Shown here one piece after another: positions 5,545 to 58,046 of a DNA stretch of 64,000 nt. The notes beneath the pieces were generated by a model. The model made no database searches. It was given only the letters and a program-made list of their open reading frames with translations, and had not been told where the DNA came from. Position numbers and translations under genes: made by a program. Source of the DNA: Halorientalis litorea (lineage in GTDB: Archaea > Halobacteriota > Halobacteria > Halobacteriales > Haloarculaceae); contig NZ_CP095482.1 in the NCBI RefSeq assembly GCF_023028225.1, forward strand, positions 1,798,001 to 1,862,000, in the 5' to 3' direction. How positions within the stretch are numbered: position 1 is the first letter of the stretch; every line of letters starts with the position of its first letter.

Positions 5545-5649
5545 TTCATTCCTCGCGGATGCTTCGCTTCGCTCAGCATCCGCCTCGTCACTCACGTCCT
5601 GACTTGCCCCACGCTCGTTTCACTCGCGTGGGACTCCGTCAGGACGTTC
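5532..5649 (+). repeat. Direct repeat of the tRNA-Arg 3' end, 102 bp apart
   Basis: CTCCGTCAGGACGTTC occurs at 5532-5547 (inside and just past tRNA-Arg) and again at 5634-5649. The DNA between holds two hairpins: 5555-5583 (9-bp stem, GCGGATGCT/AGCATCCGC, loop with CTTCGCTTC) and 5608-5632 (7-bp stem, CCCACGC/GCGTGGG). The second ends one base before the copied tRNA end. The tRNA body is not duplicated. This geometry is what a site-specific insertion at the tRNA 3' end would leave, on a very small scale; the same pattern is seen at tRNA-Val and, less clearly, tRNA-Asp. Confidence 0.85.
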
Positions 5650-15149: not shown

Positions 15150-15223
15150 GGGTTCGTGGTCTAGTCGGTTATGACGCGGCCTTTACAAGGCCGAGGTCGG
15201 TGGTTCGAATCCGCCCGAACCCA
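15150..15223 (+). tRNA. tRNA-Val (anticodon TAC)
   Basis: Complete cloverleaf of 74 nt. Acceptor GGGTTCG (15150-15156) pairs with CGAACCC (15216-15222), discriminator A15223. The anticodon loop TTTACAA is closed by GGCC/GGCC; the T arm is GGTGG-TTCGAAT-CCGCC. No intron, CCA not encoded. Its last 24 nt recur twice downstream. Confidence 0.96.
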
Positions 15224-15443
15224 CTCGATTTTGTGACGAGCGGACGTGAGGAACAAATCGAGCCGTGAGGGCGATTCGCGGCCCAGAGGACGAGCGAAGC
15301 GATGTCCTCGTGGTTCGAATCCGCCCGAACCCATTTTTGCCGCGAACACCCCGTGAGCGGTAAATGCGGTCCGTGGACTCGAACGAGAGAAACGAGCGAA
15401 CGCCGTGAGTGAGTTTCGCGTGGTTCGAATCCGCCCGAACCCA
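15200..15443 (+). repeat. Three copies of the tRNA-Val 3' end at exact 110-bp period
   Basis: The 24 bases from 15200 to 15223 (T arm and acceptor 3' strand, including GGTTCGAATCCGCCCGAACC) are repeated identically at 15310-15333 and 15420-15443. Starts are exactly 110 bp apart both times, although the spacers differ in sequence. Each spacer ends in a hairpin that stops directly against the next copy: 15286-15309 (GAGGAC/GTCCTC, loop with GAGCGAAGCGA) and 15396-15419 (GCGAA/TTCGC). Spacer 1 also opens with a hairpin, 15224-15262 (CTCGATT/AATCGAG). The second copy is followed by TTTTT. Perfect identity over 24 nt in all copies argues for recent origin or constraint. Confidence 0.95.
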
Positions 15444-15540
15444 CTGCCGCTCGGCACGAACGACTCGTGAGTGTCGAGCAAAGCGTTCGGCGGCGCGAAC
15501 CGGACGAGTCGCGTACAACGTCGTATCTCGGCGTCGTCGT
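15224..15540. other. Non-coding hairpin region after tRNA-Val
   Basis: No protein gene is credible here; an open frame on the minus strand (about 15161-15481) merely reads the three tRNA-end copies. Beyond the third copy the pattern seems to begin again, with a hairpin CACGA/TCGTG at 15452-15466 and GAGCAAAGCG at 15476-15485, but no fourth tRNA end follows at the expected 15530, so a decayed or 5'-truncated unit is possible. Confidence 0.6.
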
Positions 15541-15972
15541 TCAGCAGGGGGCGTCTTCCAAGAGTCGCCGCCCCCGGTCCGTTTCGGGGGCGATATTTGG
15601 GACAGAGACCGGGTCACCGTCCTCGTTGACGGCGACCATGACGAAGCACGCCGACGTGGTACGCTGGGTATCGGTAGTACGCGGGTCACCGCTCTCGACG
15701 GTCACTCTGACTTGGAGACTGGTGTCTCCCGTATCGAAGACGTACGCCGAGTACGTCGCGACGTGACCGACGGGGATGGGGTTCTCGAACTCGACGCTGC
15801 TGATGCGAGCGGTGACACACGTCTCGCCCGCGACTCGCATCGCGGAGACTGCGGCGAGTTCGTCCATCAGTCGGACTACCGTTCCACCGTGTGCGTTCTC
15901 GTAATTGTTCGCTTGGCCGGGTTGGACCCGCTCGGTCGACGTCAAGTGTGAATCGAGTACTGAGACAGCCAT
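15541..15972 (-). CDS. Acyl-CoA thioesterase, hotdog fold
   Basis: 143 residues, the size of a single hotdog domain of the YciA/acyl-CoA thioesterase group. The active-site region ANNYENAHGGTVVRLMDELA (about 21-40; Asn, HGG and the acidic residue at the start of the long helix) is followed by strands ARISSVEFENPIPVGHVATY and LQVRVTVESGD. The enzyme would hydrolyse acyl-CoA to the free acid and CoA; chain-length preference is unknown. MAVSVLDSHLTSTERVQPGQ is the natural start. It stands alone between the tRNA-Val repeat region and a divergent lipoprotein gene. Confidence 0.87.
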   Translation of the reverse strand: MAVSVLDSHLTSTERVQPGQANNYENAHGGTVVRLMDELAAVSAMRVAGETCVTARISSVEFENPIPVGHVATYSAYVFDTGDTSLQVRVTVESGDPRTTDTQRTTSACFVMVAVNEDGDPVSVPNIAPETDRGRRLLEDAPC

Positions 15973-57811: not shown

Positions 57812-57998
57812 CTCGCCGTGTTGTTCGCGTCAGAGAACGCCCGAGGCGGGATTTGAACCCGATGCAAACCCTCGCGCCGCTCGGCTTTCCGTGGTTCAAA
57901 TCCTGCTGGCGACGGTTCGACGCTCACGGTGGCGAGTACACGAGGTACTCGCCGTGTTGTTCGCGTCAGAGAACGCCCGAGGCGGGATTTGAACCCGC
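57812..57998 (-). repeat. Direct repeat of the tRNA-Asp 3' end and trailer, 136 bp apart
   Basis: On the plus strand a segment of about 50 bases, from CTCGCCGTGTTGTTCGCGTC through AGAACGCCCGAGGCGGGATT to GAACCCG, occurs at 57812-57861 and again at 57948-57997. The second lies in tRNA-Asp (3' end at 57974) and its trailer; the first is a copy downstream of it. Unlike the Val and Arg loci, the copy includes 26 bases of trailer, which can fold GTTC-tctgacgc-GAAC. Between the copies is a 9-bp hairpin GGCGAGTAC/GTACTCGCC (57931-57953); 57866-57880 also holds CTCGCGCCGCTCGG. At about 57892-57902 GTGGTTCAAATCCTGC resembles a further, unpaired T arm. Confidence 0.92.
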
Positions 57999-58046
57999 GT
58001 CACGACCGTGACAGGGTCGTATGATGGGCCACTACACCACCCGGGC
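57974..58046 (-). tRNA. tRNA-Asp (anticodon GTC)
   Basis: Complete 73-nt cloverleaf on the minus strand. Acceptor GCCCGGG (58046-58040) pairs with CTCGGGC (one G-U), discriminator G. The anticodon loop CTGTCAC is closed by CGACC/GGTCG, and the T arm GCGGG-TTCAAAT-CCCGC is perfect. No intron, CCA not encoded. Its 3' end is repeated downstream (separate entry). Confidence 0.96.

Follow-up and report, generated by a model that had tools for sequence, protein, structure and literature searches.

A tandem array behind the tRNA-Val gene of Halorientalis litorea belongs to a Halobacteria-wide family of tRNA-anchored hairpin repeats

REP/BIME palindromic repeats and MITEs are short, non-coding and hairpin-forming sequences, which occur in arrays and are probably non-autonomous. 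CRISPR arrays have cas genes, spacers that are unique and uniform in length, and repeats that bear no relation to the gene next to them, and integron attC arrays consist of tandem imperfect hairpins of ~60-140 nt with one-base bulges, a strand-specific fold and the core GTTRRRY. At archaeal integrated elements, the intact tRNA gene is followed by a second, partial copy of its 3' end, and these direct repeats are the att sites of tyrosine recombinases (review PMC8371274). Single partial tRNA copies have been described for haloarchaeal prophages (PMC3119063, PMC3623002). For Haloferax volcanii, termination of transcription at T stretches and at one tested hairpin has been described, and two RNA 3' ends are reported behind tRNA-Pro (PMC7237163).

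The window analysed here is a stretch of 64,000 nucleotides of H. litorea (contig NZ_CP095482.1, positions 1,798,001 to 1,862,000, forward strand). The initial annotation had noticed that GTGGTTCGAATCCGCCCGAACCCA occurs three times behind one another, and our analysis confirmed its positions as 15200-15223, 15310-15333 and 15420-15443, with a period of 110 bp and with unlike spacers; the first of the three is the 3' end of tRNA-Val(TAC) according to ARAGORN and Rfam. This array is almost certainly one case of a family of tandem hairpin repeats that is anchored at tRNA genes throughout Halobacteria. Each unit contains a copy of the tRNA 3' end (T) and an arm antisense to it (T'). The features in the window are as follows.

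15150 to 15223, plus strand: tRNA-Val(TAC) gene (ARAGORN; Rfam RF00005, 67.4 bits)
15203 to 15223, plus strand: master copy of T, nt 53-73 of tRNA-Val
15224 to 15333, plus strand: unit 1, 110 bp (model R1, E 4.5e-16; model R2, E 1.1e-11 over 15227-15333)
15224 to 15262, plus strand: hairpin 1 of unit 1, CTCGATTTTGT...ACAAATCGAG (fold; covarying helix in the unit alignments)
15269 to 15278, plus strand: T' of unit 1 (GGGCGATTCG), antisense to the tRNA-Val T-arm with a 1-nt bulge (sequence; T'/T helix of the consensus fold)
15285 to 15309, plus strand: inner hairpin of unit 1, AGAGGAC-GAGCGAAGCGAT-GTCCTC (sequence; module comparison)
15310 to 15333, plus strand: first downstream copy of the tRNA-Val 3' end, with nt 53-73 at 15313-15333
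15334 to 15443, plus strand: unit 2, 110 bp (model R2, E 4.5e-12; sequence), with hairpin 1 at 15334-15363, T' at 15373-15384, inner hairpin at 15385-15419 and T copy at 15420-15443
15420 to 15443, plus strand: second downstream copy of the tRNA-Val 3' end
15444 to 15515, plus strand: decayed third unit without a terminal T (sequence; weak model R2 match at 15447-15581, E 0.03), with hairpin 1 at 15444-15479 and T' (GTTCGGCGG) at 15485-15493
57974 to 58046, minus strand: tRNA-Asp(GTC), a second unit-bearing tRNA of the window (ARAGORN, Rfam)
57838 to 57973, minus strand: 136-bp trailer unit of tRNA-Asp, closed by a perfect copy of that tRNA's 3' end (model R2, E 5.1e-12)

Without mismatches, the 21-mer GTTCGAATCCGCCCGAACCCA was present in the whole 3.2-Mb genome only at the three sites of the tRNA-Val array, and its reversed control pattern had no match there. 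The 24-nt hairpins reported earlier just before the copies do exist as the inner hairpins of the units (for example 15285-15309), but each forms the top of a longer hairpin, whose outer arm is the repeat itself and pairs with the antisense T' (15269-15278 in unit 1). The suspected partial fourth unit is real as well, hairpin 1 and T' extending from 15444 to ~15493 with no final T.

The plan of the unit was derived from 26 units at tRNA-Val and then from 49 units at many tRNAs. The units lie on the tRNA strand, contain two hairpins and carry two arms tailored to the host tRNA, in the order pyrimidine-rich start, hairpin 1, T', inner hairpin and T. T reproduces nt 53-73 of the tRNA upstream, T' is an antisense copy of its T-loop and T-stem, often with a one-base bulge, and the inner hairpin is drawn from a few recurring classes, of which the one in unit 1 at tRNA-Val was found behind other tRNAs too by module comparison. 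The unit length is 93-163 bp across tRNAs, which is too short for integrase or cargo genes, and no ORF or recombinase was found in any unit. The first base was a pyrimidine in 62 of 63 units, and the frequency of T was 0.38 in nt 1-10 as compared to 0.13 inside the units. The tip of hairpin 1 follows the pattern GA-RC-loop-GY-GA with tandem G.A in 90 of 116 units versus 4% in shuffles, and this conserved tandem G.A is confined to the tRNA sense strand.

RNAalifold, unprompted, folded 49 units of many tRNAs into hairpin 1 and a 14-bp T'/T helix. The unit alignment contained 110 double-change cells as compared to 45 +/- 5 in shuffles, and the number dropped off when the structure was slid, so that the stems covary as expected of a structural RNA. 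The sense strand folded better than the antisense strand in 48 of 63 units (p = 2.6e-6). T' tracks its own tRNA, since the observed duplex energy was not reached in 20,000 relabellings of the tRNA types, and it matches the variable T-loop bases too, as in Lys(TTT), where GTTCAACTCC pairs with GGAGTTGAA; this match is a statistical one, and for many single units another tRNA pairs equally well or better.

As compared to the known systems, the haloarchaeal units share with integrated elements the partial tRNA 3' end repeated behind an intact tRNA gene, but they are ~95-160 bp in length, non-coding and tandem, contain an antisense arm and two conserved hairpins, and are present at most tRNA types. 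The single partial tRNA copies associated with prophages are a different thing from these tandem units. REP/BIME and MITEs are likewise short, non-coding, hairpin-forming and arrayed, whereas the haloarchaeal units are tied to tRNA 3' ends, lie on the tRNA strand and have arms that match the host tRNA. CRISPR arrays also combine regular repeats with differing spacers and a more decayed distal end; here, however, the repeats are tRNA 3' ends, and the spacers are structured, fall into few families and are uneven in length. The units resemble attC sites in their imperfect, strand-specific hairpins and one-base bulges, but they contain no cassette genes and T starts with GTTCRAA instead of the GTTRRRY core. 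The terminators of H. volcanii also place a T-rich stretch and a hairpin behind a gene, but those are single signals, in contrast to tandem units each ending in a copy of the tRNA 3' end. Above the gathering score, only tRNAs matched Rfam 15, with nothing significant in 15224-15540. No description of the repeat family was found in Rfam or in the open-access papers searched (no preprints), and measured against the open-access literature we rate the family as categorically new as a kind of repeat.

The family is widespread both within this genome and within the class. In H. litorea, at least 20 of the 43 tRNA genes have their own 3' end copied downstream, as compared to 1 of 1,654 foreign-tail controls (at most 2 of 16 mismatches, 400 nt). 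A looser test (at most 3 of 16 mismatches, 500 nt) gave own-tail copies behind 24 of 43, two or three of which are doubtful (Arg-GCG, Arg-CCT, Pro-GGG). Across nine genomes of the genus, one to six tandem occurrences of the tRNA-Val 3' end were found, spaced by 109-129 bp, and in other families the tRNA-Val copies are spaced by 109-151 bp. The exact 110-bp period is therefore coincidental and no meaningful signal, because the spacing varies at tRNA-Val in congeners and the unit length at other tRNAs is 93-163 bp; the argument that the initial annotation drew from the identical spacing is refuted. The array is not an assembly artefact, as it recurs in independent genomes. Behind one tRNA-Val gene (L030, genome G206), a gene of ~160 codons, SnoaL-like by eye, lies between the tRNA and degenerate T copies.

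The covariance model R2, which was built from six genomes, detected units at E<=1e-4 in 115 of 117 Halobacteria genomes and in all 46 of the 46 genera sampled; G022 and G026 were the only two genomes without a match at this threshold, and none of about 101 non-Halobacteria genomes of the phylum had units. Three genomes from other genera gave 104 matches, of which 96 stood immediately behind a listed tRNA or belonged to an array following it, on the same strand. Since the model includes a T copy, it has some built-in bias toward tRNA ends. The remaining eight were found behind unlisted tRNAs (Pro, Gln and one with an intron), in further arrays or at apparent tRNA 3'-end remnants. The presence of units at a given tRNA varies between species, and about half of the tRNAs have no detected unit. 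The conservation in 46 of 46 genera and of inner-hairpin classes across families suggests function rather than drift. Searches of plasmids and phages found no unit, nor did one pattern scan of viral contigs find any of the haloarchaeal type. High-GC viral contigs (L149, L151, L153, L154, L157 and L158) contain long, nearly perfect hairpins, GCATGGATTTGAACCGTGGACCTCTGG..CCAGAGGTCCACGGTTCAAATCCATGC, which are apparently inverted copies of a tRNA 3' end and have a plan unrelated to that of the haloarchaeal units.

The gain and loss of units was followed at the orthologous tRNA-Pro(TGG) locus in 30 genomes of another genus, in which zero to two units per genome were found. Several species share two hairpin-1 types in one order, an argument for vertical inheritance combined with loss. 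Locus L173 has no unit and L166 has two, and behind the last T their flanks can be aligned from T up to and including the following tRNA gene; therefore the difference consists of whole units cut at T. This is a precise empty site, and a deletion between T copies would look identical. L169, with one unit, shares the flank of L166 and L173 over the first ~50 bases only. In seven of the 30 genomes (L179, L180, L182-L185 and L188), the tRNA-Pro 3' end has the sequence GTTCGACTCTCAGCGGCCCCA in place of GTTCGAATCCGGGCGGTCCCA, with no units behind it; these ends were probably replaced by integrated elements.

In 16 multi-unit arrays, the mismatches amounted to 0.06 in the first T copy versus 0.75 in the last (p = 0.016), and at L187 a change in the tRNA is present in the proximal copy and absent from the distal remnant. 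Near-identical neighbouring units, such as those of 108 bp behind tRNA-Lys of G005, indicate tandem duplication. Near-identical hairpin modules also occur behind different tRNAs within one genome, and the two modules of a unit vary nearly independently (Spearman 0.11; 4 pairs alike in both versus 4.2 expected). The idea that the tRNA 3' end is rebuilt by serial insertion is partly upheld by these data. The copies run from G53 in the T-loop to nt 73, about 20 different tRNAs have their own 3' end repeated, and whole units are present or absent with boundaries at T at tRNA-Pro in the other genus. Serial insertion itself was not borne out, because several species have the same hairpin types in one order and recombination between T copies would account for gain and loss just as well.

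At L087 (G000, contig 1, 939287 to ~939500, minus strand), a tRNA-Ile 3' half, from the anticodon arm to the 3' end, has its own unit and lies ~9 kb from the intact tRNA-Ile at 948577. The T copies of both arrays carry the displaced allele (GGAGTGGCCCA) and not that of the intact tRNA-Ile (GGATTGGCCCA). This 3' half looks like the displaced end of an integrated element.

The reading that the stems are kept complementary at the DNA level is the weakest link of our argument. In the hairpin-1 stems, 16 G-U and 14 A-C mispairs were counted, as compared to 15 and 0 in the tRNA stems of the same genome (Fisher p = 0.0014), so the excess of G-U over A-C expected of a structural RNA was not seen in hairpin 1. 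The tip is either GAGC..GCGA (40) or GAAC..GTGA (34) with only 2 intermediates, i.e., 74 of the 76 hairpins have G-C or A-T as their tip pair and G-U intermediates are nearly absent. An apparent G-U preference in the T'/T helix (119:37) was discarded, since it rests on ambiguous and boundary columns and falls to 41:31 in the core without column 165. Because the stems covary strongly yet lack the G-U excess, the data point to upkeep of complementarity at the DNA level and not by ordinary selection on RNA stems. The selected RNA architecture suggested in the initial annotation is partly supported by the covarying stems and the conserved tandem G.A of the sense strand, but the expected G-U signature is absent. 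The tandem G.A on one strand and the better folding of the sense strand could equally reflect a selected RNA or a strand-specific protein site.

We propose that the arrays grow and shrink when the ~21-nt T repeats recombine or slip, and that the neighbouring tRNA would serve to renew T. Fold-back (quasipalindrome) templated correction at the DNA level may keep T' and the stems complementary, and the hairpin used for correction would be formed by the non-template strand of the heavily transcribed gene. On this view the family would be, for the most part, a structured satellite that perpetuates itself in a safe site, and the T-rich start with hairpin 1 behind each T might, as a guess, serve as a transcription terminator too. 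To this mechanism as a whole, which combines turnover by T-copy recombination, renewal of T and hairpin-templated correction, we give slightly less than an even chance.

It is also possible, if rather doubtful, that the units are a selected RNA trailer, co-transcribed with the tRNA and folded as RNA, in which the T-rich tract and hairpin 1 would end or protect the transcript, and the T'/T hairpin would serve to shield the copies or to tune processing of the 3' end. Such a trailer would agree with units that lie on the tRNA strand and begin at the tRNA 3' end, with the covarying stems, the sense-strand tandem G.A, the better sense folding and the T-rich start, and in H. volcanii T stretches and some hairpins do terminate transcription, with two RNA 3' ends downstream of tRNA-Pro (PMC7237163). 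However, G-U is no commoner than A-C in hairpin 1, unlike in tRNA stems of the same genome, the presence at each tRNA varies among species, with about half of the tRNAs and 2 of 117 genomes lacking detected units, and the T copies have no acceptor 5' strand. We consider it unlikely that the units are non-autonomous mobile mini-elements inserted at tRNA 3' ends, with nt 53-73 duplicated as a target site or through site-specific recombination in the T-loop. The extent of the copies from G53 to nt 73, the precise filled and empty sites, the near-identical hairpin modules that different tRNAs share within a genome and the better preserved proximal copies would all suit insertion, but the units carry no ORF or recombinase, their two modules reassort nearly independently and not as a cassette, the same hairpin types keep their order at tRNA-Pro in several species, no convincing donor-type T' was found and nothing matched in plasmids or phages.

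Improbable in our view is a self-propagating element guided by base pairing, in which T' would be the guide to the T-arm of one particular tRNA gene, insertion or fold-back copying would duplicate nt 53-73 and the tRNA would always be restored; hairpin modules would thereby spread among tRNA genes, with T' and T re-tailored to each host tRNA. The replaced tRNA-Pro 3' ends in 7 of 30 genomes and the tRNA-Ile 3'-half remnant with its own unit ~9 kb off suggest that integrated elements make use of these tRNAs, and the units could be read as leftovers of ordinary tRNA-targeting integrative elements or as att-like decoys for their integrases. This explanation leaves T', the two structured hairpins, the covariation and the single plan at most tRNA types unaccounted for, and we regard it as very improbable. 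Assembly artefact or chance is practically negligible given independent genomes, families and tRNAs and the own-tail count of 20/43 against 1/1654 for foreign tails.

Several more specific assignments were tried and rejected. By eye, the units have no correctly spaced D box and no clear ACA box, which argues against a C/D or H/ACA guide RNA in spite of T' being antisense to the T-loop. The tandem G.A lacks the 3-nt bulge of a K-turn, a tRNA-like RNase Z substrate would need the acceptor 5' strand that the copies lack, and no known RNA family in Rfam matched. A T' retained from a donor tRNA was considered as a trace of transposition; 22 tested units fit another tRNA better by at least 3.5 kcal/mol, and the best of these foreign-T' units gain only ~2-4 matching bases, which we judged by inspection to be at chance level.

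An entire class of Archaea appears to have a repeat family that is linked to its tRNA genes and absent from Rfam and from the open-access papers searched. The family raises the testable questions of how dozens of loci each keep arms that fit their own tRNA, whether DNA hairpins of a transcribed strand act as templates for repairing themselves, and what haloarchaeal tRNA trailers contain. Repeats of a haloarchaeal tRNA 3' end alone are not evidence of an integrated virus or plasmid.

Other observations concern the window itself. The flank past the tRNA-Asp unit repeats the start of hairpin 1. Behind tRNA-Arg(GCG), at 5545-5646 on the plus strand, a hairpin GCGGATGCT..AGCATCCGC is followed by a second one, which pairs ACGTCCTGAC with GTCAGGACG and ends in the last 13 nt of the tRNA; this trailer is possibly a variant unit with its antisense arm on the acceptor and not on the T-arm. 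On the minus strand at 15161-15689, ORFs antisense to the T copies encode repetitive peptides (GSGGFEP, WVRADSNH, FGRIRTT), which are likely spurious gene calls over the T-copy arrays, and spurious antisense ORF calls are possible over tRNA trailer arrays in general.
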